A DNA stretch of 64,000 bases from Saliniradius amylolyticus (GTDB lineage: Bacteria; Pseudomonadota; Gammaproteobacteria; Enterobacterales; Alteromonadaceae). How positions within the stretch are numbered: the first letter of the stretch is position 1; each line of letters starts with the position of its first letter. Under the pieces are notes generated by a model. That model had not been told where the DNA came from. It did no database searches and was given only the letters and a program-made list of their open reading frames with translations. The DNA is taken from the NCBI RefSeq assembly GCF_003143555.1, contig NZ_CP029347.1, positions 2,728,001-2,792,000 on the forward strand. The letters are read 5' to 3'. Shown piece by piece: positions 2,471-25,388 of the stretch. The translations under genes were made by a program, and so were the position numbers.

Positions 2471-2495
2471 TAGTAATCAGTCTTCATACATCTTA
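2471..2495. promoter_or_regulatory. GntR-regulon operator-like site 1
   Basis: It contains CAGTCTTCATACATCTTAC, matching the GTCTTCATA core shared by six intergenic sites in this locus. It lies upstream of the TonB receptor at 2402. Binding by the GntR protein encoded at 25524 is inferred from co-occurrence. Confidence 0.5.
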
Positions 2496-2621
2496 CAAAC
2501 ATATATTCAGATGATCAACATTGCCGTAATTTTTTTTTAACAAAGATGAAATGAGTATCTGAACTGCAGAAGACTGAGGGCTCAGCCCTGGTCAGCCATT
2601 CAACTGAACTGGAAAAGGGAG

Positions 2622-4217
2622 TTACTTCGAGAGGCGAAGCTTTAATTGATTGGCTTCAATAAAATAAAAGTCAGCGTAGATAATGCCAGTGTCGATCTCA
2701 CCCGCGGCTGGCATATTGCCGGTTGCTTCCATCAGCAAAAAGCCCCGTTGATAAGCACTGGATTCTGGCGCTCTGTGACTCAGATAATTTTTGGTTAACG
2801 CAGCCATCACCCTATCAGCCAACGCAGTGACTTGCTGCTTTTCAGGCCAATCCGGGTTTAAGGCCAAACGATACAGCCCAGCCGCAATCAGAGCTGCCGC
2901 AGAAGTGTCTTTAGGAATAGCACGATCCCTCGCGTGCTTAATACTCTCCCGGCCGCATGGGTAAAAAAGATCGCCCTCTGACAGGGGCTTGCCTTCCGGC
3001 GTCTCCCACAGCATCAGACGTTCTCTGGCAGAAACCGTCAGCATTGCCGTCGACAACGCCAACGGCTGATAGCCCTTATACGGGAGGATATGTTCATCAA
3101 GTTGTCGTGGACACAAATCCTGCATTGGTGAATAGGTCAGTCCCCGGTCATCAATCACCAGGTTGTTCGCGTCTTCATCCGCAGCAAAAAAGTCCCAATC
3201 CGGCACCGGGTGCGAGACGAGTAAAGACTCCAGTGTGGACACTAAAGACTGCGTATGAGTCATAAAGTGAGAACGCTGCCTATTATGGTTAAACGCTTCC
3301 GGGTAGGCTAATAGTGTTGCGAACCCATAGAGCGACCAGCCCTGCCCTCGCGACCAGGCACTATGATTGCCTAAACCTTGCCAGTTTCCGGGTAAATCGA
3401 GCTGATGATCGTACAGATGATAGGCAATGGTGAGTGGTAAGCCCGGCTCTCTTTCAAGGGTAAAATAATGTTTGTCTATGGTTCGCTGACCATGACTGAT
3501 TGCGGCCTGCTGATGCTCGCTCTGTGAACTGGTGAGTAACAACTCTAAGTTCATCATATTATCGATGATCACGGGCAGCTGCCAGGGTTGAGCAATGTCA
3601 AAGGCCATCGGTTCAATGCCTTGAGCACCACGCACGGGAAACTTAATGGCAGGTAACCAATCCCACGACTGTACGACTCCATACTCAGGACGATACCGTT
3701 GATACAAGCTTTCGCGGGCCTGATTCAATGCTCTGGTGTAGCGATGTTTTAGCGGAGCGGGCAGGTCAGGATAGTCCAATGCTTCAGCAAACGAATCATA
3801 CGCAATGAAGCCGAGATCATGGGTATCGGTGCGCCAGACCTCTGGATATATTCGCTGCTGATAAGCCACAGCGTGGTTTTGCAAGCGCCGCCGTAATACC
3901 GTATCCGATTCATTCAATGCCTTGGACACGGACAACAATTTCCAGAAAGCCCCTGGGTAGAAACCATTCGTCCATTTACCCGGGACCGCCATTTGAATGT
4001 CGTCGCCGTGCAGTGCTCTGGGAGTGCACAGATGAAGTGATTCCTGACACAAAACAGGCAATTGCAGGTGCTGACGAGCCTCTACCTGCTGCATCATTTT
4101 AGTGTATTGCGTCAGGGCAAAGTTGAGATTGGCTTTGGCCTGACTGGGCGTAAAGACTTCAGCCTGACTGGCGCCCGATAACAAGCAAATCCCCAGTAAA
4201 TAGAAACGCCAACCCAT
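2622..4217 (-). CDS. GH88 unsaturated glucuronyl hydrolase, exported
   Basis: Predicted to hydrolyse the terminal 4,5-unsaturated uronic acid from oligosaccharides made by a polysaccharide lyase, releasing 5-keto-4-deoxyuronate for KduI. The 531-residue protein starts with a signal peptide ending near SQA (residue 19), so it should act in the periplasm. The two GH88 catalytic aspartates are recognisable in HDLGF (D134) and IIDNMMNLELL (D219). WSRGQGWSLYGFA and DTGIIYADFYFIEA are also typical of the family. It is about 100 residues longer than the classical Bacillus enzyme, mostly at the N-terminal side. It begins 9 bp after dctM and is the last gene of the kduD-kduI-dctPQM operon. Confidence 0.88.
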   Translation of the reverse strand: MGWRFYLLGICLLSGASQAEVFTPSQAKANLNFALTQYTKMMQQVEARQHLQLPVLCQESLHLCTPRALHGDDIQMAVPGKWTNGFYPGAFWKLLSVSKALNESDTVLRRRLQNHAVAYQQRIYPEVWRTDTHDLGFIAYDSFAEALDYPDLPAPLKHRYTRALNQARESLYQRYRPEYGVVQSWDWLPAIKFPVRGAQGIEPMAFDIAQPWQLPVIIDNMMNLELLLTSSQSEHQQAAISHGQRTIDKHYFTLEREPGLPLTIAYHLYDHQLDLPGNWQGLGNHSAWSRGQGWSLYGFATLLAYPEAFNHNRQRSHFMTHTQSLVSTLESLLVSHPVPDWDFFAADEDANNLVIDDRGLTYSPMQDLCPRQLDEHILPYKGYQPLALSTAMLTVSARERLMLWETPEGKPLSEGDLFYPCGRESIKHARDRAIPKDTSAAALIAAGLYRLALNPDWPEKQQVTALADRVMAALTKNYLSHRAPESSAYQRGFLLMEATGNMPAAGEIDTGIIYADFYFIEANQLKLRLSK

Positions 4218-4226
4218 GATGCTTCC

Positions 4227-5528
4227 CTATTGATACAACCCAGTTATGGTAGGCAGCCATTCACTGACGGCAGGCACGTAGGTGACAATCATTAGTGCCA
4301 CAAACATTGCCATATAAAGGGGTAATAGTGGTGGAATCACCCTGGCAATACTCGCCTTACCCACCGAGCAGCCCACAAACAGCACCGAGCCGACCGGCGG
4401 TGAGCACAACCCAATGGACAGGTTCATGACCAGCATAATGCCAAAATGCAAAGGACTCATGCCCAGACTCTCGGCCACCGGCAGTAATATCGGGGTAAAA
4501 ATCAGTACCGCTGGCGTCGTGTCCATAAAGGCGCCAATGAACAACAACATCAGGTTAATGATCAGCAGCAGGATAATGGGATTATCACTGATCCCCAATA
4601 ACGCCTGAGTGATCAACTGAGGAATGTTCTCATAAGCCAGTATCCAGGACATGGCTGAAGACACGGCGATCAGCATCATCACGATCGCCGTTACCTCGGC
4701 GGTCTTGAGTAACACGGCCGACAGTTCTGACCAACGAATCTGCCGGTATACGCCCATAGCAAGTGCCAACGAATAGACTACCGCTATAGCACCGGCTTCT
4801 GTGGCGGTAAACAGCCCTGAGATAATCCCCCCCATGACCAGGACCACCATAAACAGAGCAGGCATTGCTGCCCCCGTGCGCCTGATAACTTCCTTAAACG
4901 GCAATGCCGCCATAACCGGATAGCCGCGCACTTTAGCAAAGGTGGCACACACCAGCATGAGGGAAAAGGCCACCAATAGCCCGGGTAAATAGCCCGCCAC
5001 AAACAACGCCGATATCGATACACCACCACTGGCAATAGCGAATACAATCAATATATTACTGGGCGGAATGACCATCCCCGTCGTCGCCGCGGCAGTCGTC
5101 ACAGCGGTAGAAAAATTCCTGTCATAACCTTTCCTTTCCATCTCTGGAATCATAAAGCTGCCAATGGCACTGGTCGTCGCTACCGCTGATCCAGAGATTC
5201 CGCCAAACAGCGCACAGGAAACGACGTTAACCAGTGCCAGTCCACCCGGCAACATGCCGATATACGCCATCGCAAAATCTATCAAACGCCGGGCTATCCC
5301 CCCTTGTCCCATAATGACGCCAGACAAGACAAAAAACGGGATCGCCAATAGCGCAAAGCTATTGAGGCCATTCGCCATCCGCTGCGCCAACGTAGTGACC
5401 GCCGGCATGGCATCCATACTGAGCAGCATGGTTACCAGAGTCGCAAATCCGATGCTAAAGGAAATCGGTACACGCAATACCAGCAACACCAGGAACACCA
5501 CCAGCAGCACCAGCCCACCAAACTCCAT
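4227..5528 (-). CDS. dctM: TRAP transporter large membrane subunit (DctM family)
   Basis: Large integral-membrane permease of a tripartite ATP-independent periplasmic transporter, using an ion gradient to bring a carboxylate sugar, here probably an unsaturated or keto-deoxy uronate, into the cytoplasm. The protein has 433 residues and is almost entirely hydrophobic segments, with DctM signatures such as GGISGSAVATTSAIGSFMIP and TGMVIPPSNILIVFA. I start it at the ATG at 5528 (MEFGGLVLLV), just behind the dctQ stop at 5531, because a longer reading would overlap dctQ without need. It forms an operon with dctQ and dctP upstream and the GH88 gene downstream. Confidence 0.93.
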   Translation of the reverse strand: MEFGGLVLLVVFLVLLVLRVPISFSIGFATLVTMLLSMDAMPAVTTLAQRMANGLNSFALLAIPFFVLSGVIMGQGGIARRLIDFAMAYIGMLPGGLALVNVVSCALFGGISGSAVATTSAIGSFMIPEMERKGYDRNFSTAVTTAAATTGMVIPPSNILIVFAIASGGVSISALFVAGYLPGLLVAFSLMLVCATFAKVRGYPVMAALPFKEVIRRTGAAMPALFMVVLVMGGIISGLFTATEAGAIAVVYSLALAMGVYRQIRWSELSAVLLKTAEVTAIVMMLIAVSSAMSWILAYENIPQLITQALLGISDNPIILLLIINLMLLFIGAFMDTTPAVLIFTPILLPVAESLGMSPLHFGIMLVMNLSIGLCSPPVGSVLFVGCSVGKASIARVIPPLLPLYMAMFVALMIVTYVPAVSEWLPTITGLYQ

Positions 5529-5530
5529 GA

Positions 5531-6004
5531 CTAGGACTCCCTCAAAACAGAAATCAGCGCAGAACACGCATAAACGGATATAACGACACCGGATATCGGC
5601 AGCACGGCGTAGACCCAGGCCATATTGAGTTGCAGCGCAGAGGATTGCTGGCCTGGGTCAATGGCTAACGCCATCAGTTGAATGCCACCTAACACCATGA
5701 CAGACAGAGCAAAACTCAAAACGACGCCATGTACCAATACCGTCACACGCCGCTGCCATAGCTGTGACAATTGATTCACCAGCAAGTCCAGACCCAAATG
5801 TGCCCCGGTCCGGTAGGCATAGGATGCCCCTAAGATTCCGAGCCAGATCAACAAGAAACGAGCGATCTCTTCACTGTAAGCACTGGGGGTTTGTGTGACA
5901 TAGCGGGACAGGACTTGCCAGCAGACACAGACAACAATCGCTGCTGTCAAAGCCACCAACAACCGGCTCAGGCCCTTATCCAGCCAGGCTAGAGATAGCC
6001 TCAT
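5531..6004 (-). CDS. dctQ: TRAP transporter small membrane subunit (DctQ family)
   Basis: Small membrane subunit of the TRAP transporter, which pairs with DctM and receives substrate from DctP. The protein has 157 residues and four predicted membrane helices (around 15-35, 48-65, 88-108 and 128-148), and its length and topology are standard for DctQ. The motif RYVTQTPSAYSEEIARFLLIW is characteristic. The ATG overlaps the dctP stop codon (ATGA), indicating translational coupling. Confidence 0.9.
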   Translation of the reverse strand: MRLSLAWLDKGLSRLLVALTAAIVVCVCWQVLSRYVTQTPSAYSEEIARFLLIWLGILGASYAYRTGAHLGLDLLVNQLSQLWQRRVTVLVHGVVLSFALSVMVLGGIQLMALAIDPGQQSSALQLNMAWVYAVLPISGVVISVYACSALISVLRES

Positions 6005-6984
6005 TGTGATACTCCCATCGACTTAATGCGCTGCATTAGCGGCCCGACGGCGGAATCACTGAGACGCTGATGCAGCGGCTCAACAGCCTTATAGAACGGC
6101 GCTTTATCCGGACGAGTGATGGTCACTCCTGCCTCGGCCAATCTGGCTAACGCCTGTTGTTCCGCCTGTTCCCAAAGTTGACGCTGCTTCCGTACCGCAT
6201 CGTCCATAGCACGCTCCAGCCACCGGCGCTCTTTGGAATTCAGGCTATTCAGAACATGATTACTGATAATGATGACGTCAGGAATCGAAGCGTGTTCGTT
6301 CAATGAATAATGCTTCGCGATCTCGTAATGGCGCGACGAATAATAACTGGGCGGATTGTTCTCAGCCCCATCCACTACCCCCTGTTGCAAGGCGGCGTAC
6401 AGCTCACCCCAGGCCATGGGCGTGGCGGCGCCCTGCATCGTATCAATCAGCTGCACTGCCATAGGACTGTTCATCACCCGCACTTTCTTACCCTGAACGT
6501 CTTCTGGAACGGACACCATTGATTCGGTCATGTAGAAGCTGCGACTGCCTGCGTCCATGTAAGCCAGGCCGGTGAATCTGGCGGGTCGGGTGGCCCGTAA
6601 AATCTCCTCGCCAATGGCCGACTCCAGAACGCGCCAACGATGCTCATCGGAACGAAACAGGTAGGGCACACCAAAGACCCGCATTTCAGACACAAAGCCT
6701 TCCAGAGAAGCGGCGGAAACTTTGGTCATCGCCAGGCTGCCAATTTGGAGAAGCTCCACCATATCCCGCTCTGAACCAAGTTGGCCATTGGGATAAAGCT
6801 TCAGCTGCAGCTGCCCATTGGAGTAGATGACCAACCGCTCTGCCATATGCTGCAGAGCTTGATGCACAGAGTGATTAGTATCCAGAGTATGGCCTACCCG
6901 CAGAACCCGATGGGGACCTTCGGTCTGACAGGCCGATAAAGCCACCACCATTATTGCGATCAAAAGAGAAGAGTGTCGATACAT
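6001..6984 (-). CDS. dctP: TRAP transporter substrate-binding protein (DctP family), lipoprotein
   Basis: Periplasmic receptor of the TRAP transporter. About 327 residues. The N-terminus MYRHSSLLIAIMVVALSAC has a lipobox (LSAC), so the mature protein is probably a lipoprotein anchored to a membrane. DctP hallmarks include GQLGSERDMVELLQIGSLAM and the ligand-carboxylate arginine region KVRVMNSPMAVQLI, plus GVVDGAENNPPSYYS. The start at 6984 (ATG) is chosen over the GTG at 7005 because it gives a normal signal sequence. Its place between kduI and dctQ argues for a uronate-derived ligand. Many DctP proteins in such operons bind galacturonate or glucuronate. Confidence 0.92.
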   Translation of the reverse strand: MYRHSSLLIAIMVVALSACQTEGPHRVLRVGHTLDTNHSVHQALQHMAERLVIYSNGQLQLKLYPNGQLGSERDMVELLQIGSLAMTKVSAASLEGFVSEMRVFGVPYLFRSDEHRWRVLESAIGEEILRATRPARFTGLAYMDAGSRSFYMTESMVSVPEDVQGKKVRVMNSPMAVQLIDTMQGAATPMAWGELYAALQQGVVDGAENNPPSYYSSRHYEIAKHYSLNEHASIPDVIIISNHVLNSLNSKERRWLERAMDDAVRKQRQLWEQAEQQALARLAEAGVTITRPDKAPFYKAVEPLHQRLSDSAVGPLMQRIKSMGVSQ

Positions 6985-7022
6985 CACAGCCCCGCTAATA
7001 GGCACTCACCGATAACAATCTG

Positions 7023-7862
7023 TTAACGTATCTCGGCAGGACCATATTTGTCCATATCGTCATAATCCAGGTTTTCACCGGCCATCCCCCAGATGAAGGT
7101 ATAGTTAGCCGTCCCAGCTCCACTATGGATTGACCAGGCAGGAGAGATCACCGCCTGCTTATTTGCCATCCAGACATGCCGGGTTTCCTTGGGTTCACCC
7201 ATAAAATGGCAAACAGCCTGATCCTCTGGCACATCAATATAGAGATACGTCTCCATTCGACGATCGTGCTGATGTACCGGCATTGTATTCCAGATACTAC
7301 CGGGCTGCAGGCAGGTCATGCCCATCTGCAATTGACAGGTATCCACGATGCCGTTGATGATCATCTGATTGATGACGCGCTCATTACAGGTTTCTTTAGA
7401 GCCTAGCTCCAATACTTTGGCCTGATCTCGCCCCACCTTTTTCACTGGGTATTGAGCATGAGCGGGAGCGGAATTCAGATAGAACTCTGCCGGACGGGTC
7501 TCATCGGCGCTCTCGAAAACAACTTTTTCATTACCCGCTCCGATATAGAGCGCCTCTTTATGGCCCACTTCATATACCTCGCCATCAACCGTGACGCGCC
7601 CTGCACCGCCGACATTGATGGCACCTAATTCCCGACGTGCCAAAAAGTAGGGTGCTTTTAAGGGATCGATGCTCTCCAGCTCCAGCGCTCCCTTAACCGG
7701 CACAGCTGCACCGACGATAAAGCGGTCATAGTGGGTATAAACCAGCTTTATCTTATCTTCGACAAAGAGGTCAGTAAGCTGAAAGTGTTCACGAATCGCG
7801 TCGGTACCAAAACCTTTAAACTCATTATGGCCAACGGCGTACTTAACTTCGTAATCTACCAT
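7023..7862 (-). CDS. kduI: 4-deoxy-L-threo-5-hexosulose-uronate ketol-isomerase (KduI)
   Basis: Cytoplasmic isomerase (EC 5.3.1.17) that turns 5-keto-4-deoxyuronate, formed spontaneously from unsaturated uronate, into 2,5-diketo-3-deoxygluconate for KduD. The length of 279 residues matches E. coli KduI (278). The cupin metal site is visible as MPVHQHDRRMETYLYI (two His and a Glu) followed by VCHFMGEP. A clear ribosome-binding GGAG precedes the ATG. It follows kduD by 22 bp and precedes dctP by about 38 bp, forming one operon for uronate use. Confidence 0.97.
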   Translation of the reverse strand: MVDYEVKYAVGHNEFKGFGTDAIREHFQLTDLFVEDKIKLVYTHYDRFIVGAAVPVKGALELESIDPLKAPYFLARRELGAINVGGAGRVTVDGEVYEVGHKEALYIGAGNEKVVFESADETRPAEFYLNSAPAHAQYPVKKVGRDQAKVLELGSKETCNERVINQMIINGIVDTCQLQMGMTCLQPGSIWNTMPVHQHDRRMETYLYIDVPEDQAVCHFMGEPKETRHVWMANKQAVISPAWSIHSGAGTANYTFIWGMAGENLDYDDMDKYGPAEIR

Positions 7863-7884
7863 GATGGAATTCTCCTATTAGGGT

Positions 7885-8655
7885 TTATCGAGCCAGCCAG
7901 CCGCCGTCGACGGCTAACACGTGGCCATTGATGTAGTCACTGCCCTGAGAGGCTAAAAATACAGCGGCCCCACTAAGCTGCTCTGGCTCTCCCCATCGTC
8001 CGGCAGGGATGCGCTTTTCAATTTCTTTGTTGCGCTCAGGGTCGGCTTGCAGTGCGGCGGTGTTATCGGTACGGAAATAACCTGGTGCGATGGCATTCAC
8101 CTGAACATTGGCACTGGCCCATTCATTCGCCAGGGCCTTGGTCAGACCCACGATAGCGTGCTTACTGGCGGCATAGGCCGGAACGGTAATCCCTCCGGTG
8201 TAAGACAGCATTGAGGCAATGTTAATGATCTTGCCCTGGCCGCGCTGAACCATGTGTTTACCAATGATCTGGCTTAACAAAAAGGGCGCATCAATGTTCA
8301 CATCCATCACCCGCTTCCAGTCCTCAAACGGATAGTCAACGGCCGGACTGCGGGCAATGGTGCCGCCATTGTTAACCAGTACATCGACCTGACCCGTGAC
8401 GCCCAAGGCCTGCTCAGCCATTGCCCTGACCTGATCGGGTTGACTCAAGTCGGCGACAAGCTCGTAGCTTTCCCCATCAAACTCAGCAATGGATGCTCTG
8501 GTCGCATCGCAGCCCCCTTCTCGCGAACTGCTGCACACCACCACGGCACCGGCCTTTGCCAGACCAATAGCCATGGCCTGTCCTAACCCGCGACTGGCGC
8601 CGGTTACAAGGGCCGTTTTGCCTGCTAAAGAAAACACATTGTATTCTTGGCTCAT
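7885..8655 (-). CDS. kduD: 2-dehydro-3-deoxy-D-gluconate 5-dehydrogenase (KduD)
   Basis: Short-chain dehydrogenase (EC 1.1.1.127) that reduces 2,5-diketo-3-deoxygluconate to 2-keto-3-deoxygluconate, the substrate of KdgK. The 256 residues show the Rossmann motif VTGASRGLGQAMA, the N-x-G loop VNNGGTI, and the catalytic Tyr and Lys in YAASKHA. It is the first gene of the kduD-kduI-dctPQM-GH88 operon. An AGAGG ribosome site precedes the ATG and a palindromic GntR-type site lies about 40 bp upstream. Confidence 0.95.
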   Translation of the reverse strand: MSQEYNVFSLAGKTALVTGASRGLGQAMAIGLAKAGAVVVCSSSREGGCDATRASIAEFDGESYELVADLSQPDQVRAMAEQALGVTGQVDVLVNNGGTIARSPAVDYPFEDWKRVMDVNIDAPFLLSQIIGKHMVQRGQGKIINIASMLSYTGGITVPAYAASKHAIVGLTKALANEWASANVQVNAIAPGYFRTDNTAALQADPERNKEIEKRIPAGRWGEPEQLSGAAVFLASQGSDYINGHVLAVDGGWLAR

Positions 8656-8690: not shown

Positions 8691-8718
8691 TTATGTTGTA
8701 AGTCTTCATACAACATAA
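8691..8718. promoter_or_regulatory. GntR-regulon operator-like site 2 (palindromic)
   Basis: Perfect 10-bp arms TTATGTTGTA and TACAACATAA flank AGTCTTCA. This is the most symmetric of six related sites and lies just upstream of kduD, so it is the likely operator of the kdu-TRAP-GH88 operon. Assignment to the local FadR-type GntR is inference. Confidence 0.6.
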
Positions 8719-8765: not shown

Positions 8766-9920
8766 TCAGTGGCTACATGGATGGATTTTCAGGGTTAATC
8801 CGTCCCCAATGTCGGCCTGGTAAATGTCTGCTTCCAGTCCAAACTGTTGGGGATATTCCCGTTTTATACGTCGATTCAGCGTTTCGACCCGATCATGGGG
8901 ACACAGGCACACAATGGCGCCACCGAATCCTCCGCCGGTCATACGTGCGGCGCCGGCTTGTCCTAACAAGTCATCACAAATGGCCACAAGGCCGTCGGTC
9001 GCCGGTACGGTCACCTCAAAATCGTGTTTTAATGACTGGTGAGAGGCTCGCATCAGGTTGCTCATCGCATTGATGTCTGAGGCGCCAAGTGCCTCCTCAA
9101 ACGCAAACACTCGTGCGTTTTCGGTAATCACGTGCCGCGCGCGGCGGTATTGGTCGGCCGTCATTGAAGCCCGGCACTGCTCAAGCATCGGCAAGGTGGC
9201 CTCTCTCAGGGAGCTTAACCCCATCGCTGCCGCAGCCTGCTCACAGTCCCGACGCCTTTGGTTATAAGCACTATCCACCAGTTTGCGAGGGTAGTTCGAG
9301 TTAATAATTAATAAGGAAAGACACTTGGGAATTGGCGTAAAACGTCGCTCCAGAGATTCGCAGTCAATTAACACCGCATGCCCGGCCTGGCCTGTGGCCG
9401 AAACGAGCTGATCCATGATGCCACACTGACAGTCCATGAAGTCATTTTCAGCCTGTTGACCGATAACGGCCAACTGCTGCGGAGAGAGCGTCAACGACAG
9501 TGCTGCATTGATGGCTCCGGCGACAGCGACCTCTAACGCGGCCGATGAGGACAGCCCCGCCCCCTGCGGCACATCACTGGCAATCACCAGCTCCATCCCC
9601 TTCAAGGCATACTCTCTTTGCTGAAAAACAGCAAACACAGCACGTACGTAGTTGCCCCACTGACAAGGCCCCGGCGCTAACTGATTCTGCACAGAAAACT
9701 GGTCTGACTCCTGGGGGTAGTTCTGTGAGTAGACGAAAACCTGGTCATCATTCCGCAAACGGAATGCCACCTGAGTGCGGAACTGCAGTGCGGCGGGGTA
9801 AACAAAACCTCCATTGAAGTCAGTAAACTCACCAATCAGATTGACTCGCCCCGGGGCACTGGCGATACCCTGAAGATCAGACTGGAAATGCTGACGAAAC
9901 GCTTGATACATATCAGTCAC
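8766..9920 (-). CDS. galK: Galactokinase
   Basis: Phosphorylates alpha-D-galactose with ATP to galactose-1-phosphate, the first step of the Leloir pathway in the cytoplasm. The 384 residues contain the galactokinase signature GRVNLIGEFTDFNGGFVYP, the GHMP ATP-binding loop GAGLSSSAALEVA and the third motif MTGGGFGGAIVCL. I use the GTG at 9920 as start because AAGGAG lies 7 bp before it, while the ATG at 9911 is too far from that site. It overlaps the end of galT by 8 bp, consistent with translational coupling. It is the last gene of the symporter-galE-galT-galK operon. Confidence 0.96.
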   Translation of the reverse strand: MTDMYQAFRQHFQSDLQGIASAPGRVNLIGEFTDFNGGFVYPAALQFRTQVAFRLRNDDQVFVYSQNYPQESDQFSVQNQLAPGPCQWGNYVRAVFAVFQQREYALKGMELVIASDVPQGAGLSSSAALEVAVAGAINAALSLTLSPQQLAVIGQQAENDFMDCQCGIMDQLVSATGQAGHAVLIDCESLERRFTPIPKCLSLLIINSNYPRKLVDSAYNQRRRDCEQAAAAMGLSSLREATLPMLEQCRASMTADQYRRARHVITENARVFAFEEALGASDINAMSNLMRASHQSLKHDFEVTVPATDGLVAICDDLLGQAGAARMTGGGFGGAIVCLCPHDRVETLNRRIKREYPQQFGLEADIYQADIGDGLTLKIHPCSH

Positions 9921-10953
9921 TGCTCGTCTCCTTGTAGTGAGTCAACGACGTCTGTCGCAATGCACCCGCTGCCTTCTCAGGGGTAAGATCCCGCTGGCTC
10001 TCTGCTAACATTTCATAGCCCACCATATGTTTTTTTATGGTCGCGGATCGAAGCAAAGGCGGGTAAAAGTGGGCGTGCAGTCGCCAATGGCAGTTATCCT
10101 GACCATTGGCGGGGGCATTGTGCCAGCCCATTGAATAAGGAAAGCGACACTGGAACAGATTGTCGTAACGGGTCGTAATATTCTTCAGGATAGAGGCCAG
10201 CGATGTCTTCTGGGCCTTGTCGAGATCACCGAAATCCCGGATATCGGCGCGTGCCACCAACAATATTTCAAACGGCCAGGCGGCCCAGAACGGGACGACC
10301 GCTAACCAGTCATCATTCTGCTCCACGATCCGTGTTTGCTCATTCAGCTCCCGCTCAACATAATCAGCCAACAATGGACGGTCGTGTTGCAGGTAATATC
10401 CGGCCTGATGCCTGTCTTCAGCTGACACCTCGGAGGAAAGGTGATGATGAGCCCAGATTTGACCATGAGGATGGGGCTGTGAGCATCCCATTATCTCGCC
10501 TTTATTCTCAAAAATCTGAATACAGGCGTAGCTTTGGCTGAGCTCCTGATATTGACTCTGCCAAGTATTAACTACCTGTGTAAGCTGCGGCACGGTCATC
10601 TCTGCCAGGGTCTTGTCGTGTTCAGGGGAGAAACACATCACCCGGGCACAGCCTTGCGCTGTCTCAACCTGCATCAACTCATCGGACGCGCTGCTCACCT
10701 CCGGCGAGTCTTCCAACAGCGCCGCAAAGTCATTGGTAAAAACGAAGGTCTCTGAGTAATCAGGATTACTGTCACCATTGGCACGTTCCACAGCGGGGCA
10801 TAACGGACAATCTGCCTTAAATGCCGGTAGGTCTGGCTCAAAGGCTGCTTCGGTCGCACCATGCCAGGGCCGGTTATTGCGATGAGGTGACACCAGTACC
10901 CATTGTCCGTTGAGGGGGTTTCGGCGTCGGTGAGGAAATTCCATAGGCTGCAT
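9913..10953 (-). CDS. galT: Galactose-1-phosphate uridylyltransferase
   Basis: Exchanges UMP between UDP-glucose and galactose-1-phosphate (EC 2.7.7.12), feeding the GalE cycle. About 346 residues, the same as E. coli GalT. The active-site His-Pro-His is in CSQPHPHGQIWAHHH, and the N-terminal RRRNPLNGQWVLVSPHR is typical. The ATG at 10953 is preferred over an upstream GTG because AGGAG sits 5 bp ahead of it. It lies between galE and galK in a tight operon. Confidence 0.97.
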   Translation of the reverse strand: MQPMEFPHRRRNPLNGQWVLVSPHRNNRPWHGATEAAFEPDLPAFKADCPLCPAVERANGDSNPDYSETFVFTNDFAALLEDSPEVSSASDELMQVETAQGCARVMCFSPEHDKTLAEMTVPQLTQVVNTWQSQYQELSQSYACIQIFENKGEIMGCSQPHPHGQIWAHHHLSSEVSAEDRHQAGYYLQHDRPLLADYVERELNEQTRIVEQNDDWLAVVPFWAAWPFEILLVARADIRDFGDLDKAQKTSLASILKNITTRYDNLFQCRFPYSMGWHNAPANGQDNCHWRLHAHFYPPLLRSATIKKHMVGYEMLAESQRDLTPEKAAGALRQTSLTHYKETSSD

Positions 10954-10961
10954 AACCACTC

Positions 10962-11987
10962 CTAAATGCCTTGTGGATATTTAGACTGCCAGTGCCAGCT
11001 GTCTGCCAGCATCTGCTTAAGATCTCGCGAGGCCTGCCAATTCAGGCGAGCTTTTGCCAAAGTAGGAGCCGCAATCGTCGTCGCCACATCTCCGGGACGA
11101 CGCTCGGCGATCGAATAAGGAACAGCCCGACCAGAAACCGCTTCAAAGGTGTTCACCACATCAAGCACTGACGCGCCCGTTCCGGTTCCCAGGTTAAACG
11201 CGTGAAAGCCATTGCTGGAGTAAAGCTGCCCCAGAGCCTGCACATGCCCCTCGGCCAGGTCCATCACATGCACGTAATCCCGAATCCCGGTGCCATCGGG
11301 CGTGTCATAATCGTTACCATAAATGTGCAGTTTCTCGCGCTGACCAACCGCGGTTTGGGTCACATAAGGGACCAGGTTGTTCGGGATCCCGGTAGGGTTT
11401 TCCCCCAACAGGCCGCTTTCATGAGCGCCCACCGGATTGAAATAACGCAGCGCAATGCTCAAGTCGTCTGAGTGCGCCTGGCATTGATCGCGCATCATCT
11501 GCTCGACCATCAACTTACTCCAGCCATAGGGGTTGGTGGGCGCCTTTGAGTGGTCTTCATCAATTGGCAGGTATTGCGGATCGCCGTATACGGTTGCCGA
11601 TGAACTGAATACCAGCCGTTTAATGCCCGCTTCGTGCATCTGCTTCATCAGGATGGCGCTGTCGCAAACATTATTTTGATAATACATCAGCGGCTGTGCC
11701 GTTGATTCTCCTACGGCTTTTAAGGCGGCAAAATGCAATACAGCTTCGATCGGGTAGTCGGCAAAGCATTGTTTCAGCGCCTGGGCATCGCCCACTTCGG
11801 CCTGAATTAAGTCAAACCGCCTGCCACAGATACGTGCCAGCTGCTCTGCGACGGCGGCGCTGGAATTACTGAGATTGTCGTAGATAATGGGCGTATAACC
11901 GGCCTGGTGAAGGGCAACACAGGTATGACTGCCTACATACCCCAGCCCGCCGGTGACCAAAACATTCGGTGACGTTATGTTATTCAT
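10962..11987 (-). CDS. galE: UDP-glucose 4-epimerase
   Basis: Interconverts UDP-galactose and UDP-glucose, completing the Leloir pathway. About 341 residues from the ATG at 11987. The NAD-binding loop is VLVTGGLGYVGSHT, and the catalytic Ser and Tyr-x3-Lys are seen in FSSSATVYGD and NPYGWSKLMVEQ. The shorter start is chosen because the symporter gene ends at 11990, so the two are nearly contiguous. Besides catabolism, this enzyme could also supply UDP-galactose for surface polysaccharides. Confidence 0.96.
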   Translation of the reverse strand: MNNITSPNVLVTGGLGYVGSHTCVALHQAGYTPIIYDNLSNSSAAVAEQLARICGRRFDLIQAEVGDAQALKQCFADYPIEAVLHFAALKAVGESTAQPLMYYQNNVCDSAILMKQMHEAGIKRLVFSSSATVYGDPQYLPIDEDHSKAPTNPYGWSKLMVEQMMRDQCQAHSDDLSIALRYFNPVGAHESGLLGENPTGIPNNLVPYVTQTAVGQREKLHIYGNDYDTPDGTGIRDYVHVMDLAEGHVQALGQLYSSNGFHAFNLGTGTGASVLDVVNTFEAVSGRAVPYSIAERRPGDVATTIAAPTLAKARLNWQASRDLKQMLADSWHWQSKYPQGI

Positions 11988-11989
11988 CT

Positions 11990-13549: not shown

Positions 13550-13593
13550 GCTTGCTCACTCCATATCATGACACTGATAGTATAATGACATCA

Positions 13594-13614
13594 TCTCATA
13601 TGATGACTTATGTT
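13594..13614. promoter_or_regulatory. GntR-regulon operator-like site 3
   Basis: On the minus strand it reads ATAAGTCATCATATGAGAT, related to the GTCTTCATA core with one central change. It lies about 50 bp upstream of the symporter-galETK operon and touches the lacZ terminator. It is the weakest of the six sites. Confidence 0.4.
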
Positions 13615-13646
13615 ATTAAAAAGCGCCCCACTGATAGGTGGGGCGA
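13613..13646 (-). terminator. Rho-independent terminator of the GH105-lacZ operon
   Basis: On the minus strand CGCCCCAC, loop CTATCA and GTGGGGCG form an 8-bp stem followed by CTTTTT. It lies 25-55 bp beyond the lacZ stop codon and separates this operon from the symporter operon. Confidence 0.85.
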
Positions 13647-13669: not shown

Positions 13670-18110
<4,441 letters not shown>

Positions 18111-18133
18111 TTTATTCCTCAACGATACTTATC

Positions 18134-18147
18134 AGTCTTCATACAAC
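18134..18147. promoter_or_regulatory. GntR-regulon operator-like site 4
   Basis: The sequence AGTCTTCATACAAC is identical in its core to the kduD and kdgK sites. It lies about 25 bp upstream of the GH105 start and would cover its ribosome or promoter region. Confidence 0.55.
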
Positions 18148-18242
18148 TATAGATAAAAACGATTTGATTAACAATAGCCAAGGCAGGAAAAATGACAGGT
18201 TAAAAATTAAAAACATTTTATATCAACAAGATAAGAAATATC

Positions 18243-18258
18243 AGTCTTCATATATGTT
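18243..18258. promoter_or_regulatory. GntR-regulon operator-like site 5
   Basis: The sequence AGTCTTCATATATGTT shares the same core and lies in the AT-rich divergent region between GH105 and the PL8 gene, about 135 bp before the PL8 start. Together with site 4 it could control both directions. Confidence 0.5.
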
Positions 18259-18392
18259 ATGTGAAGTTGAATGATTTTTAACCTCGTGCTAACAATTTAA
18301 AGGCTTTGCATGAGCTCACCAAAAAGTAACATTCTCGGAACAATAACGCTGGACGCCCTATTGCTCCCCCAATAACAATGGAGCGACATACG

Positions 18393-21300
18393 ATGATCTT
18401 TAAAAACAACTCGTCGACCTGCAGACGAATGTCTCTGCAGTTGACATTACTTTCTATAATTGGGCTTGTACTCATGATCAGCAGCCAGCCAGCCCAGGCG
18501 CAAGCCAATGAAGTTGACACCCTTAAAGCTCGCTTAATACCCGACTTTGTTAGTGATGAACAGCAGCGAGCCCAAGAGGACAACACGACCGTCAATGCTC
18601 TGGCGACCAGTTACTTCAACAACCAGCAAGCTAACGGCAGTTGGAATGACATCAACTACAACGACACGTCCCGCTCCGACTGGGCCCCCTCAGAACACCT
18701 GTCCAGGCTCAGAACCATGTCGGTCGACTACTACCAGACCCCAACAGCGGCAAAAATGAATCAGCTCTCTGATGGCATCGACTATTGGTATCAGGTCAAC
18801 CCCACGAGTAATAACTGGTGGTGGAATGATATTGGCAAACAAAAATATCTTGGGGCTATCAGCTTGATTCTGGAAGATCAGCTTCAGCCTGCTCAGGTCA
18901 CTAACATCCTTGGCGATTTCCCCTCAACGCCCTCTATGACAGGAGCCAACCGCACCGATATCTCACAATCAGTGATCTATGGCGGCCTGCTGGACAATGA
19001 TGAAGCTCGTGTGCAAGCCGGCATCGACGGCATAGGCGACAGCATCATTCAAACGACTGGGGAAGGCATTCAGGCCGATAACTCCTATCATCAACACGGC
19101 CCCCTGCTGCATAACGGTTCCTATGGCAAGGTGTTACTGGGAAGCTCGCTCTACTGGGCTTATCAGGTGCGCGATCTTCAGTGGGCTTACTCCCAGGCTA
19201 AAATTGACATTATCACCGACTATTTTCTGGATGGGGATCGCTGGATGACTCGCCATGGCCGCATGGATTACAGCACAGGCGGCCGCTCGATTGCACGCCC
19301 CGGTCCCGCGGTACTCAGCAACGAGACCATGCTTAAGCGCATCGATTATACCGAAGCGTTAGTGCCTGCCCGAGCCAGTGACACTCAGGCTTTTCGCAAC
19401 CATGTTAACGGCGCATCATCGGGTTTGGACCAGCATAAGCATTACTGGCGTTCCGACTATGGTGTCAATGCGCGTCCTGATTACCTTTTCACCGTCCATA
19501 TGAGCTCCAACCGGATTCTTTCCAGTGAAACAGGTAATGGCGAGAACTTACTCGGCTTCTGGCTGGGTCTGGGCAACACCTTTTTGTACCAGAGCGGTCA
19601 AGAATACCGGGATATTTTTCCGGTCTGGGACTGGACCCGGCTACCAGGAGTCACAGGCCCGGACTACGAAGGCCCGAGCCGCACATGGGGAGGACCATCA
19701 CTACAAAACACCACATTCGTTGGCGGAGTCAGTAACGGTAGCGCTGGCATCAGCACCATGAAACTGGACGTCCTCTCTACTCAGGCGAATAAATCCTGGT
19801 TCCACTTTGATGACCTTGTTGTTGCACTGGGCAGCGGCATCACGTCGTCGCATACCAATGATGTCTTTACGACCGTTGAACAAAACCTGCTTAGCGGCAA
19901 TGTAACGGTGGACGGCAATGCACTGACTTCAGGCAGCCATGCTCTGGTTAACGCCGGTTGGGTGCACCATAACGATGTGGGGTATATTTTCCCACAGAGT
20001 TGGTCTGGTACGGTAAGTCTGCAAGCCCAGAGCGGCAGTTGGAAGCGTATTAACGAGAGTAAGTCTGACACCTTAATCAGTGAGGACGTGTTTAAACTAA
20101 CCATAGACCACGGTAATCAACCTTCGGGCGCGGACTATGCCTATCTGATTCTGCCGAAGGCCTCTGCTGCTGACACTCAAGCTGCAGCCCAGTCGTCTAA
20201 TGTCAGCATTCTGACCAATAGTGATACCCAGCAGGCGGTTTACCACTCAAGTAGCCAAACGACCGCTATAGTCTTTTATCAGCCAGGCAGCCTGACACTG
20301 TCAGGGGGGGAAATCATCAGCGTGACCCATTCCAGCGCCGTTCTGATCGATCAGAGCCAGGCGACGCCGTCGATCACCATAGCAACACCGGGAAGTGGTG
20401 GCATGGACATGGGAGTATGCTGGACCGATACCAGTGGCATCACCCAAAAGAGCACGGTCACTATATCCGGTGATGCTGCCGATCTCGGTCGGAGTCATAC
20501 GGTGACCCTGGATGGCACCACAGGTGATTGCACGCCGACCCCCGCGTTATTGCCGGAACACGATGCCTATACGCGAAACGGCGCCTACGCCGACACCAAC
20601 TATGGCAGTTACTCGTATCTTGCCATTAAAGACAGTGCCCCTGGTTATCAACGGTCAGGCTTCTTACAGTGGGACCTCAGCCAACTGGCAAGCGCCGCTG
20701 TGCAATCAGCAGAGCTTAAGCTGCATGTGCGCAACAGCGACCCCACGACCATCGGGCTATATCAAACGGCTGACAATTGGGACGAGCAGTCATTGACGCA
20801 CAACCTCGCACCCAGCCCCGGAAGCCTGGTGGCGCAAGCTAATATTAGCGGGGACGACCAGTGGCTCAGCCTCGACCTGACCAACTATGTCAATGCCCAA
20901 CTTGGCACCGACCAACGGCTCAGTCTTATGCTTCAGGGCGCGACGGCTGAGGCCTATACCGCCATCGACAGTAAAGAACACATCAGCGCCCCGAAACTTG
21001 TATTGAGCCCCCTGGCTTTGCTACCGAGCGATGACGCCATGGTGCGAAACGGCAGTTATGCCGATACAAACTACGGGTCCTGGTCTTACCTGGCTGTGAA
21101 GCAAAGCAGTAATAGTTACTACCGTAAGGCCCTGCTGAAGTGGGATCTGAGTGATATCAGTAGCGACAGCGTCAGCGAGGCCATGCTTAAACTGCATGTT
21201 CGAAACACGGACGCAACAACCAGTCTTAAGCTCTATAAAAGTGGTGATAACTGGAGTGAACAGAGCGTGACCTGGAATACTGCCCCGGCCAACGGATGGA

Positions 21301-21488
21301 TGTTTGCCGAGCCAAGCGTTTCGGGCAACAACCAGTGGATAAGCGTGGATATCACCGATTTTGTCAACGCTGAGCTCAGTGGTGATAAACAACTCAGCTT
21401 TATTATCGAAGGTAGCAGTGCTGAAGTTTATACCGCCATTGATAGCAAGGAAGACAATAACCGTCCCTATATTACGATTAACCTCTAA
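18393..21488 (+). CDS. Secreted polysaccharide lyase family 8 with two DNRLRE domains
   Basis: A beta-eliminating lyase for a uronate-containing polysaccharide. The family contains hyaluronate, chondroitin AC/ABC and xanthan lyases. It has 1031 residues from the ATG at 18393 (GGAG 8 bp upstream) and a signal peptide ending near AQA. The PL8 alpha/alpha toroid carries the catalytic set with textbook spacing: Asn186 (GANRTD), His235 (YHQHGPLLHNG), Tyr244 and Arg298 (MDYSTGGRSIARPG). It is followed by ETGNGENLLGFWLGLG and WDWTRLPGVT. Residues about 714-874 and 875-1031 are two DNRLRE/CBM96-like beta domains (DTNYGS...SYLA, TAIDSKE in each), probably glycan binding. It is the presumed entry enzyme of the locus and stands alone, divergent from the GH105-lacZ operon. 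Confidence 0.9.
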   Translation: MIFKNNSSTCRRMSLQLTLLSIIGLVLMISSQPAQAQANEVDTLKARLIPDFVSDEQQRAQEDNTTVNALATSYFNNQQANGSWNDINYNDTSRSDWAPSEHLSRLRTMSVDYYQTPTAAKMNQLSDGIDYWYQVNPTSNNWWWNDIGKQKYLGAISLILEDQLQPAQVTNILGDFPSTPSMTGANRTDISQSVIYGGLLDNDEARVQAGIDGIGDSIIQTTGEGIQADNSYHQHGPLLHNGSYGKVLLGSSLYWAYQVRDLQWAYSQAKIDIITDYFLDGDRWMTRHGRMDYSTGGRSIARPGPAVLSNETMLKRIDYTEALVPARASDTQAFRNHVNGASSGLDQHKHYWRSDYGVNARPDYLFTVHMSSNRILSSETGNGENLLGFWLGLGNTFLYQSGQEYRDIFPVWDWTRLPGVTGPDYEGPSRTWGGPSLQNTTFVGGVSNGSAGISTMKLDVLSTQANKSWFHFDDLVVALGSGITSSHTNDVFTTVEQNLLSGNVTVDGNALTSGSHALVNAGWVHHNDVGYIFPQSWSGTVSLQAQSGSWKRINESKSDTLISEDVFKLTIDHGNQPSGADYAYLILPKASAADTQAAAQSSNVSILTNSDTQQAVYHSSSQTTAIVFYQPGSLTLSGGEIISVTHSSAVLIDQSQATPSITIATPGSGGMDMGVCWTDTSGITQKSTVTISGDAADLGRSHTVTLDGTTGDCTPTPALLPEHDAYTRNGAYADTNYGSYSYLAIKDSAPGYQRSGFLQWDLSQLASAAVQSAELKLHVRNSDPTTIGLYQTADNWDEQSLTHNLAPSPGSLVAQANISGDDQWLSLDLTNYVNAQLGTDQRLSLMLQGATAEAYTAIDSKEHISAPKLVLSPLALLPSDDAMVRNGSYADTNYGSWSYLAVKQSSNSYYRKALLKWDLSDISSDSVSEAMLKLHVRNTDATTSLKLYKSGDNWSEQSVTWNTAPANGWMFAEPSVSGNNQWISVDITDFVNAELSGDKQLSFIIEGSSAEVYTAIDSKEDNNRPYITINL

Positions 21489-21840: not shown

Positions 21841-21841
21841 T

Positions 21842-21865: not shown

Positions 21866-21883
21866 GTTATGGACATGCCCGGG

Positions 21884-23113
21884 TTAATCTTTTAACGACG
21901 TATCTCTGCGCACATCACTATCCCCTCCCCAGACTTTCTTCGCAGTCCAGGGTTCTGCCGGGCTGGTCCAGAATGAATGCTGCTCAGGTAACCCGAGGGG
22001 CAGGAACCCCAGTGAGGCCATATACAAACTGCCTGTGGAGATATAGGGTTCTGCCAGGCCTGTTTGCTCACCGACGACGCCGATTTTTAACCAACCTTCA
22101 TCATCATAACTCTCACCACTGAGCAGTCGCTTCATGACAGCGGTCATTGCCGAACGCACCTGCCCCTCGTTAAGTCCCTTCGGCAAACGCTCCATTAAGG
22201 CCATTTGGGCTAACGTCTGAAAGGCACCAAAGCGGTAAATAGCGGAACGCCCGACGATAGGATAGGTTCCCTCTGGCGAGATTTGCCGTTCTAATATCGC
22301 TGCATAGCGCTGGGAACGGGCCATGACCTTGTCTTGCAATGCGTTCAGACGATGGCCTGTTTTGGCCTTCAGAACCCGGTGCACATCCACCAGCATGGGC
22401 TGGATAACGTATGAGTTGTAATAGTCCCAATGATAGGGCTCGCCGTCGGAATACACCCCATCTCCTACATACCAGTCCTTATGTTTATGCAACCCAAACT
22501 CAATGCGCGGCATATTGGTGGGGTAATCAAACTTTAAGTAAAACGCCTCCAGTGTCGCCGGAAACATAAGCCAATTGCTGTAGGGGATGTCGGCAATGTG
22601 GCGCGTTTTTTCAAAGGCAGCCAGCACGTCTTCCTTTACCCCATCAGACAAGCCGTACCAAAGCTGCTTCGGTGCCCGAATAAAAGCCTGGGCCAGGTAA
22701 GCCACATCAACCAGTGGCTGATGACCATTATTAAAATTCAAATAGTCTGGAGATTCAGGGTTCACACCATTGGCAATGGCTTGACGGGCCAATTGGATAT
22801 ACTCAGCCCTGAGTTTACCTTCCTCAGTGTCTGATGGTCCCAACTCTAGCCATGGCGCCATGCCAGCCATCAGCCGCCCCAGAGACTCTAAAGGTGCATA
22901 TTTAATACGCTGGCCATACTCTGCTTCAAACTCTCCTTGCTTGTTGGGGAGGTTAGTACGGAGCGTTTCATCGGCAAGATTACGCAGCACCGGATCCGCC
23001 ATAGCTGTCAAATGCCCAACCCATTGTTGACGAACATTATCATCAGCGACTGAATTTACGGCTATAGCCAACCAAAGCACGAGAGTTAGTATCAGTTTCC
23101 CACTATCTAACAT
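21884..23113 (-). CDS. DUF2264 family protein, exported (possible glycoside hydrolase)
   Basis: 409 residues with a signal peptide ending near VADD (about residue 23). The sequence matches the DUF2264 family, alpha/alpha-barrel-like proteins found in sugar loci. Visible conserved stretches are RLMAGMAPWLELG near the N-terminus, NNGHQPLVDVAYLAQAFIR, GDGVYSDGEPYHWDYYNSYV, and PIVGRSAIYRFGAFQTLAQM. As far as I recall, related proteins have been linked to beta-glucuronidase family GH154, but I cannot confirm that this member belongs there. It is the last gene of the kdgK-DUF4861-DUF2264 operon, starting 11 bp after DUF4861. A role in trimming uronate-containing oligomers in the periplasm is inferred. 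Confidence 0.8.
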   Translation of the reverse strand: MLDSGKLILTLVLWLAIAVNSVADDNVRQQWVGHLTAMADPVLRNLADETLRTNLPNKQGEFEAEYGQRIKYAPLESLGRLMAGMAPWLELGPSDTEEGKLRAEYIQLARQAIANGVNPESPDYLNFNNGHQPLVDVAYLAQAFIRAPKQLWYGLSDGVKEDVLAAFEKTRHIADIPYSNWLMFPATLEAFYLKFDYPTNMPRIEFGLHKHKDWYVGDGVYSDGEPYHWDYYNSYVIQPMLVDVHRVLKAKTGHRLNALQDKVMARSQRYAAILERQISPEGTYPIVGRSAIYRFGAFQTLAQMALMERLPKGLNEGQVRSAMTAVMKRLLSGESYDDEGWLKIGVVGEQTGLAEPYISTGSLYMASLGFLPLGLPEQHSFWTSPAEPWTAKKVWGGDSDVRRDTSLKD

Positions 23114-23123
23114 GTCTATTTCC

Positions 23124-24377
23124 CTAATGTTCTACTTGCACGAGTAGCGGCTGGTTAAGCTTAATCAGCTCGTGCTCGAGCATGTCCTGAAATTGCGCTT
23201 TACTGCCAATAGCATCGGGGCCTTGCTGCCAGTAACCCCCGAAGTAGTATTCCAAGGTCTGCAATGAAGGCTTCATCACCACCAAATGATTGTGCTCGTC
23301 TTGAGTAAGGGTCTGAACATCCGTTTGACGATAAAACACCACCATTCCCAAACCATCATTGATATAGCTTTGGTCGCCATAGGTCGCTATATAGCGCCAT
23401 GGCCCGGCTTGATGATCCCCTGACTGCATTAGCTGAGACTCATGTTTGACTATGCCGGTAACCCACTGTGGTAGTTCACCTTCTGCCGAGACTGTTACCT
23501 GTGTTAACGCACTGCCGGCCTCAATACCGTAACGAGCATCAATATCGGCTTGTCCGGTTTCTCCGACAAAGCCTTGATGAGACACCTCAACTTCACTGTA
23601 CAGGGGAGTGCTGTGGCGGATGCTCACGGTCATTTGTTCGCTGTTATCAATACGTCTTGCCCGCTTGTCCTGATACACAGCCAGGCTGCCCAAACCAATA
23701 GATGGGCCTGTTTTCAGGATATCCATGCCCCATGGCTGTAACTCGTGATAAGAGGGCGCATCGACGTTACCGACCTGTGGCAGGGTGAGCTCCGGTTGGC
23801 GCTTGCCGAAGATATCGATCACATTACGCTTATCAAAATAGAGTCGGTACGCCACCTTGTCCGATTCCCATCCTGGTCCTTCATATTTAAATAAGCCGTC
23901 GCCAATTTCGTGCTGCTCCGGTAACGTCATTGCTTCCACTGCCTTAAAACTGCCACCGGTATACACCCCATCTTGCCGCTGAGCGTCATAACGCTTGCCC
24001 AGCTCCGCATAAGTACGCGTCTGAAGACTGATTTTATCCGCTTCTCGCAGTCGGTAGCTCGCCTTCCCATTGGCTTCCAGCGACACACTGAATAACAGCG
24101 TATCCGGTTGACTATCCAGATCCTCATCCAGCCACTGCCCCGGTACTATTTTCCGCCCGTTGTCCAGGACCACGGCGGCCCCTCGAAGGGGCTGTCCTGG
24201 TTCGCCCAGTTCGGTTACAGAAACCCGGACAATTTCATCCCGTCTTTCTGTTGGTGATGGATTTGAGATAGTAATCTGGGGGGCCGACTCGACTGAGGGC
24301 TGACACCCTGTGACCACCGCACTCAATAGAAGAGAAGCGGCGCAAAACGTCCAACGGGTTTGAAAACTAGACTTCAT
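23124..24377 (-). CDS. DUF4861 family lipoprotein of unknown function
   Basis: 417 residues with a lipoprotein signal (lipobox VVTGC, Cys at about residue 25). It is beta-rich and resembles the DUF4861 family, which is repeatedly found in Bacteroidetes and gammaproteobacterial glycan loci but has no function I can state. Features include ISNPSPTERRDEIVRVSV at the N-terminus, YEGPGWESDKVAYRLYFDKR in the middle, and LEYYFGGYWQQG near the C-terminus. It sits between kdgK and DUF2264 in one operon, preceded by AGGAGA. Co-occurrence with PL8 and GH105 suggests an esterase, lyase-like or binding role on the same glycan, which is only a guess. Confidence 0.75.
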   Translation of the reverse strand: MKSSFQTRWTFCAASLLLSAVVTGCQPSVESAPQITISNPSPTERRDEIVRVSVTELGEPGQPLRGAAVVLDNGRKIVPGQWLDEDLDSQPDTLLFSVSLEANGKASYRLREADKISLQTRTYAELGKRYDAQRQDGVYTGGSFKAVEAMTLPEQHEIGDGLFKYEGPGWESDKVAYRLYFDKRNVIDIFGKRQPELTLPQVGNVDAPSYHELQPWGMDILKTGPSIGLGSLAVYQDKRARRIDNSEQMTVSIRHSTPLYSEVEVSHQGFVGETGQADIDARYGIEAGSALTQVTVSAEGELPQWVTGIVKHESQLMQSGDHQAGPWRYIATYGDQSYINDGLGMVVFYRQTDVQTLTQDEHNHLVVMKPSLQTLEYYFGGYWQQGPDAIGSKAQFQDMLEHELIKLNQPLLVQVEH

Positions 24378-24420
24378 TATTTGTGTTCTCCTGGGTTATG
24401 AGTTTTAGCCGATAGCCGGG

Positions 24421-25356
24421 CTAAGTATGAACTGACGACACTGCAGGCGTGACGTTGACGGGAATGATAGCCCCGGGATGTTGGATAACGCTCGCAGCTA
24501 ACGTCTGACCCTTTGCGACCCTCTGTTCTGGGGGCTGCCCGGCAAGCAAGGCAGACAGGTACCCCGCATTAAATGAATCCCCCGCAGCCGTGGTGTCCAC
24601 CACCGAGCCCACAGGTTCAACCGGGAAGTGCTGGCGCTCGCTTTGAGTCAGCCGCATCACATGGTCAGCCCCCGCTTTGATCACCAACTCAGGAATACAA
24701 AGAGGAGCCAAAAGGTCGGCCACTTCTTGAGAGGTGATATCTTCACGCCCCAACAGGCTCGCCATATCCTCACGACCTGCAAATACCAGGTCACAAGACT
24801 CCATAAAGGCGTAGATATCTGTCTTCGCTTTGTCTCTGCTTTCCCAAAGCACAGGTCTGAAGTTAGTATCAAACACTAACTTTACGCCTTGACGACGCAG
24901 ATCAGTCAGCTTTTCTAACAAGCGGCTTCGGTCATTGGCGGATAAAATTGCTAACGAGATACCAGAAAGAAACACCCAGTCCACCTGTTCGGCGATGGCG
25001 GAAAAGTCGTTGTCACTAAAAGTATCGAGCAAAGTGCGGGCCGCAGAGTTCTCGCGGTAATAGGTAAATTGGCGCTCACCCGCAGTATCAGTCTGAATAA
25101 AATACACACCGCAAGATCGACTTTCGTGCGACTTCAGCCAACGCGTATCCAGACGCGACTGTTCGCAGTAGTGACGTAAGTCCTGACTGAACATATCGCG
25201 GCCCAATACCGACGCGAAAGCCACCTCACACTCTTCTGATATTCGCTTCATGTAAACCGCAGTATTGAAAACATCACCTGCAAAGGCTTGATGCCACACG
25301 CCGGCTTCCCCCTGACGAAATTCAGCCATACATTCACCAATAAACAGGATTTTCAT
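24421..25356 (-). CDS. kdgK: 2-keto-3-deoxygluconate kinase (KdgK), PfkB family
   Basis: Phosphorylates 2-keto-3-deoxygluconate from KduD to KDPG, which Eda (not in this window) would cleave to pyruvate and glyceraldehyde-3-phosphate. About 311 residues, normal for KdgK. The PfkB C-terminal signature with the catalytic Asp is DTTAAGDSFNAGYLSALL, and the N-terminal MKILFIGECMAEFRQG is typical of KDG kinases. The ATG at 25356 is preferred over two preceding GTG codons. It heads the operon kdgK-DUF4861-DUF2264 and is divergent from gntR with a shared operator. Confidence 0.92.
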   Translation of the reverse strand: MKILFIGECMAEFRQGEAGVWHQAFAGDVFNTAVYMKRISEECEVAFASVLGRDMFSQDLRHYCEQSRLDTRWLKSHESRSCGVYFIQTDTAGERQFTYYRENSAARTLLDTFSDNDFSAIAEQVDWVFLSGISLAILSANDRSRLLEKLTDLRRQGVKLVFDTNFRPVLWESRDKAKTDIYAFMESCDLVFAGREDMASLLGREDITSQEVADLLAPLCIPELVIKAGADHVMRLTQSERQHFPVEPVGSVVDTTAAGDSFNAGYLSALLAGQPPEQRVAKGQTLAASVIQHPGAIIPVNVTPAVSSVHT

Positions 25357-25367
25357 CACCACTACTC

Positions 25368-25388
25368 ATATGTCTTCATACAACATAT
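25368..25388. promoter_or_regulatory. GntR-regulon operator-like site 6 (kdgK/gntR)
   Basis: ATATGT and ACATAT arms flank CTTCATACA, giving a 21-bp symmetric site just upstream of kdgK and about 140 bp upstream of gntR. It suggests both autoregulation and control of kdgK. The core GTCTTCATACAACAT is the same as at site 2. Confidence 0.6.

Follow-up and report, generated by a model that had tools for sequence, protein, structure and literature searches.

Repressors of the FadR subfamily of GntR proteins, such as UxuR, ExuR, LldR, PdhR and NanR, combine a GntR head with an FCD domain, and those that respond to sugar acids share local control of a catabolic locus and a site before their own gene. 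Operators of the FadR type carry TKGT and ACMA boxes 2–3 nt apart, with exceptions listed in PMC4494728, a spacing that is typical of the subfamily but does not strictly define it. Predicted GntR regulons described in PMC5507952 include those of UxuR for glucuronate and GguR for galactarate and glucarate; PMC7953866 and PMC13390454 provide context only. Closer to the locus described here are chondroitin-type loci of other Alteromonadaceae (genomes G328, G406 and G421), which share with it the regulator type, the operator, kduD/kduI, a TRAP transporter, kdgK, PL8, GH88 and DUF4861; these loci have sulfatases, whereas ours has instead lacZ, an SSF symporter, galE, galT, galK and galM. A gal operon in genome G542 shares galT, galK, SSF, galE and a galM-like gene with our locus, but adjoins a LacI-like gene, with GTAAACGTTTAC-type palindromes between the two (identified by eye), and is not under an FCD regulator. 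Against this background we describe a real, locus-confined regulon that is well formed, mostly conventional and of a known kind, but with two departures from the usual: its galactose arm, which is unusual for a uronate regulon, and its operator, in which TTGT and ACAA boxes lie 10 nt apart and not 2–3 nt (PMC4494728). Neither the operator nor a uronate–galactose regulon was recognised in the literature searched, a scope outside which most subscription papers and RegPrecise fell.

The DNA analysed, hereafter the window, is a 64,000-nucleotide stretch of Saliniradius amylolyticus (G000:C1:2728001-2792000) from a single-contig genome of 3.21 Mb. The closest named relative found is Lacimicrobium sp. 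SS2-24 (Alteromonadaceae; G295, with which G331 was treated as one genome because their contig coordinates coincide). Its GntR protein is 85% identical over the best segment, four long blocks of its DNA match the window at 70–75% identity, and the locus is present with gene order kept both there and in genome G362, the exception being that no galE match was found in G362. Genes were assigned with Pfam, and with NCBIfam as well for the kduD unit. On the minus strand lie a TonB-dependent receptor gene (1–2402) that is cut by the window edge (its Pfam TonB barrel spans L075:7652-9997), the unit of kduD, kduI, dctP, dctQ, dctM and a GH88-like gene (2622–8655), the unit of the SSF symporter, galE, galT and galK (8766–13549), a GH88/GH105-type hydrolase followed by a GH2 beta-galactosidase (lacZ; 13670–18122), and the unit of kdgK, DUF4861 and DUF2264 (21884–25362), in which the DUF4861 and DUF2264 proteins are encoded at 21884–24377. 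The label GH105 is that of the initial annotation; a single Pfam model covers GH88 and GH105. The plus strand carries a PL8 lyase with two CBM96 stretches (18378–21488) and the GntR/FCD regulator (25524–26267). To the left of the window, after the TonB receptor, galM (aldose 1-epimerase; L075:6476-7429) completes the galactose set. A terminator-like hairpin stands 3′ of lacZ (13624–13645, minus strand), in a scan that is weak by itself (25 sites vs. 19.1 in shuffles). The PL8 protein scores 429.6 bits with the chondroitinase-AC model, under the cut-off of 1000, and the kdgK product 274 bits with the KdgK model, under the cut-off of 400. None of the scanned locus proteins proved to be a sulfatase.

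The word GTCTTCATA occurs five times without mismatch in the window, all on the plus strand (2480, 8702, 18135, 18244 and 25372) and never on the minus strand, and all five copies are intergenic and upstream of locus units. The initial annotation had proposed six operator copies, one for each unit, the one before kduD with perfect 10-bp arms. The arms of the kduD site are indeed perfect (TTATGTTGTA/TACAACATAA, from 8691), and the five exact words lie upstream of the named units, but the sixth site, at 13594, is GTCATCATA on the minus strand (13599–13607), with one mismatch to the word and a core that is not conserved. We therefore rejected a set of six equal sites in favour of five credible ones and a doubtful one. 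The operator cannot be equated with the 9-mer itself, or with 10-bp arms around an 8-bp gap, as relatives show a different register, STTGTATG-N4-CATACAAS. Next to orthologues of the FCD/GntR protein, this 20-bp palindrome occurs ahead of kduD, kdgK and gntR, and it is free of mismatches in G328, G508, G430 and G411; the sites of the last three contain TTGT-CAT-ACAA within the palindrome. Read in that register, GTCTTCATA corresponds to the four-base centre plus its left neighbour and the inner right half-site. Within the genus of the window, the operator's centre reads TCTT and its left half is degenerate, and the sites of the window depart from the palindrome at one (S2), two (S5), three (S3) and five (S1) positions.

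A matrix was built from 13 sites of 10 relatives, with none from Lacimicrobium-type loci. The training sites were hand-picked at no more than two mismatches, with sites of 3–4 mismatches excluded; for G653 10235, one of the 13, no adjacent gene was recognised. Left out at the same threshold were G443 1575 (a near-duplicate of G406), G496 4550 and G1028 8811, both likewise lacking a recognised adjacent gene, and the sites of G295 and G362. Across 63,981 window positions, this relatives-only matrix places S2 first, S5 second, S3 third, S1 fourth, S6 eighth and S4 sixteenth. S2 (8695–8714), before the kduD unit, becomes a perfect palindrome with 12-bp arms in G295 and G362; S5 (25365–25384) lies between kdgK and gntR, and S3 (18128–18147) before the GH105-type gene and lacZ. 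S1 (2473–2492), before the TonB receptor and hence galM outside the window, has an exact core and is the weakest of these four (7.1 bits in the window, 6.7 in G362 and 1.0 in G295), in strongly conserved surroundings with a footprint of more than 20 identical bases in G295. S4 (18237–18256), before the PL8 gene, also has an exact core, with p 0.12 in the window (first-order Markov resamplings, as for S6 below), and we accept it as an operator because it reaches 13.2 bits in both G295 and G362 (p 0.003 and 0.002). S6 (13595–13614), before the symporter unit, is weak and doubtful at 4.2 bits. In alignments with Lacimicrobium sp. SS2-24 the cores of S1–S5, which are also present in G362, are unchanged amid drifting intergenic DNA, and the sixth core is altered. 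S3 and S4 are spaced by exactly 109 bp in a common orientation in the window, G295 and G362, with drifted DNA in between. Six relatives (L112, L113, L115, L116, L118 and L119) have in common ATCAGTCYTCATG just before TTATCATACAA or TCATCATACAA upstream of kduD, which resembles ATCAGTCTTCATA of S1 and S3 in another register.

With up to one mismatch, the genus form AKTCTTCATACAWC has four matches in the 3.21-Mb genome, namely S1, S2, S3 and S5; allowing two mismatches adds 49 places, S4 among them, for a total of 53 vs. 31 with the reversed control. For a longer form of the word, five places match with up to one mismatch: four belong to the locus, and the fifth, at 1422311, falls within an open frame elsewhere. 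Many unlinked matches, which by the initial annotation would have told against the regulon, are thus absent at this stringency, with a single unlinked place for the longer form. At up to three mismatches, the palindrome barely exceeds its control across the genome (29 places vs. 22); S2 and S5 head these 29, 2236579 is third (two mismatches) and S3 fourth. Taken together, the genome scans suggest that the regulon is confined to the locus. The unlinked near matches at 2236579 (in what is presumably fliK), 1422311 and 1364091 were rejected as members, each lying in a long open frame.

The regulator protein matches PF00392 (69.8 bits) and PF07729 (85.7 bits), both above cut-off, and consists of a GntR winged-helix head and an FCD domain. 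D153, H157, H207 and H229 are invariant in 31 of 31 aligned proteins; we take this quartet to be the Asp/His metal site of the FCD domain, which would suit a carboxylate ligand such as KDG. Similarity to the NCBIfam models for LldR, PdhR, NanR, ExuR and UxuR is weak and in every case under cut-off, the best being LldR with 98.3 bits vs. a cut-off of 311. The initial annotation had it as the only regulator present, and a scan of 17 proteins from 2622 to 26267 likewise found no other. The genome encodes four FCD proteins, and we assume the other three to be one beside prp (methylcitrate) genes, one beside aceE and one that is FadR-like; the top operator scores within 19-kb stretches around these three genes are 3.1, 7.8 and 2.9 bits.

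Orthologues of the regulator (E ≤ 1e-30) are present in 26 of 395 sampled family genomes, its own included, and kduD or kduI matches of at least 60% identity occur in 17 of 30 loci around GntR relatives, within the stretch examined. Upstream of kduD, gntR or kdgK beside GntR relatives, 43 of 62 regions hold a site at p ≤ 0.05 and 19 do not, against first-order Markov resamplings and with each genome's own sites withheld from the matrix. These 62 exclude the window and any region under 200 bases; a divergent gntR/kdgK pair, with its single shared site, contributes two entries, and four GntR paralogues of 27–31% identity are included, one of which passes. For one GntR of 38% identity (G209), none of three tested regions has a significant site. 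The tight palindrome is found in 11 of the 26 genomes with an orthologue vs. 19 of the 369 without (p 2.6e-7, uncorrected for kinship). As the reversed-pattern control is itself slightly skewed towards orthologue-bearing genomes (3/26 vs. 9/369, p 0.037), a small part of this excess may be due to composition. The 11 genomes have 20 listed tight-palindrome places, 18 of which are no more than about 22 kb away from gntR; the other two are one in G496 and one in G508. Regulator and operator are, by these sequence comparisons, conserved together before uronate genes, which marks a local uronate regulon, and the FCD/GntR protein, to which the sites had originally been attributed, is likely its cognate regulator. 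In genus g103, four genomes in which no GntR orthologue was detected have TTATATGYTGTCATACAA (L193, L194, L195 and L197), perhaps for another regulator with the same sign.

With approximate promoter weights, the predicted −10 box on the transcribed strand extends into the operator by two or three bases at S1, S2 and S3 in the window, G295 and G362, i.e. in all nine promoter stretches (top-scoring in eight and tied in one). The predicted −10 of kdgK lies five bases before the S5 operator in all three genomes, and no convincing promoter placement was found for S4. A generic promoter scan lists the S2 and S3 promoters among 18 promoter-like sites in the region, vs. 18.3 in shuffles. The overlap between operator and −10 suggests a repressor that blocks transcription start. 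We consider it probable that the FCD/GntR protein is a local repressor that binds the 20-bp palindrome, and would thereby cover the predicted −10 and transcription start of the TonB receptor, kduD and GH105–lacZ units; S5 would act from just after the predicted kdgK −10 and also in front of gntR itself. Judging from gene content, the repressor would be released by an intermediate of uronate breakdown, KDG or its precursor being the most likely one, upon which import, the lyase, unsaturated-uronide hydrolysis, the kdu/kdgK route and lacZ would rise together for use of what may be a polymer with galactose and uronic acid. Within this model, computation shows where the sites are, how far they are conserved, that they are confined to the locus and that they are linked to the regulator; binding, sign of control, effector and substrate are what we infer. 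Very probably, such a local repressor switches at least five of the six gene groups.

Three other readings of the sites are less likely. The repeated word could be due to chance or constitute a general promoter feature, given that the 9-mer with one mismatch is just mildly enriched (18 window matches vs. a shuffle mean of 10.5, with at least 18 in 3 of 100 shuffles); however, its five exact copies compare with 0.43 expected from composition on both strands, and core conservation, the ranking by an independent matrix and confinement to the locus make this highly improbable. A regulator encoded elsewhere might bind the palindrome, with the gntR gene a passenger under its control, and the tight pattern does occur in the 19 of 369 genomes mentioned above in which no orthologue was detected. 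Against this, the linkage between site and gntR spans genera and none of the sites around the other FCD genes is strong, so that we regard a foreign regulator as improbable, though not to the same degree as chance. Finally, the GntR protein may be an activator or may loop S3 to S4 instead of being a simple repressor. The constant 109-bp spacing of these two sites in three genomes and the lack of a convincing promoter placement at S4 would fit such behaviour, but the overlap of S1–S3 with predicted −10 boxes does not, and we deem it unlikely.

The extent of the galactose arm is less clear-cut. The initial annotation had the GntR protein control both the uronate and the galactose branch, and this holds up in part: the operator is good for lacZ (S3, shared with the GH105-type gene), fair for TonB receptor–galM and only weak for SSF–galE–galT–galK. 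As judged from sequence, coupling of the operator to galactose genes therefore appears well supported for lacZ, fair for the TonB-receptor unit and weak for the symporter–galETK unit, which is about as likely to be inside the regulon as outside. The terminator-like hairpin separates lacZ from the SSF gene, so the latter unit probably needs its own promoter. With a chance only just short of even, the GntR protein may control the uronate units, lacZ, PL8 and the TonB receptor, leaving SSF–galETK constitutive or under another regulator elsewhere. This would agree with the hairpin, with the weakness and unconserved core of S6, with predicted promoters at S6 that do not show the −10 overlap typical of S1–S3, and with the gal genes of G542, which stand alone beside a LacI-like gene (by eye). 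On the other hand, S6 has p 0.045 in the window, 0.023 in G295 (at another position) and 0.004 in G362 (at the same place) with the relatives' matrix, and 0.013, 0.24 and 0.096, respectively, with a genus matrix; none of 293 outside tiles of the window scores as high, and no LacI-like palindrome was seen by eye before SSF in the window. The wider alternative is that in Lacimicrobium and its nearest relatives a uronate repressor, which in related genera runs chondroitin-type loci, took over the galactose route as a whole, including the single galactokinase match in the genome (galK of the symporter unit); we put this possibility somewhat below even. In that case, a uronate signal would gate growth on free galactose, and such gating would be matched to a polymer whose amino sugar is replaced by galactose. 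Ahead of SSF, the window and G295 share an identical sequence, GACATCATCTCAT (13580–13596), that lies outside the GntR operator register; it is perhaps a promoter or the site of another factor. G362 and G388 (L188 and L189) have a second SSF gene, 67% identical, beside lacZ and another GntR-like gene, and by eye the genes next to it look like an oxidative galactose route.

In the wider family, operator sites precede PL8 lyases in G328 and G406 (ABC-type) and in G421 (AC-type), GH88-type genes in G328 and G406, and sulfatases and a gene read as a TonB receptor in G328. A chondroitinase-B-like gene lies beside gntR in G406 and a heparinase-II/III-like gene in G328, neither directly preceded by a site. 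In this setting, the regulator is most simply one of glycosaminoglycan-type uronate loci, and the exchange of sulfatases for galactose genes would be explained by a polymer in which galactose substitutes for the amino sugar. An operator and a regulator can now be given for uronate-polysaccharide loci in many Alteromonadaceae, making their regulons readable from sequence; the locus itself lends itself to testing whether a uronate repressor extends to galactose genes, and the box spacing of its operator departs from the usual FadR-type rule. DUF4861 recurs in the loci of relatives (L223:3034-4293), and in G421 operator sites stand before DUF4861 as well as before kdgK/kduD.
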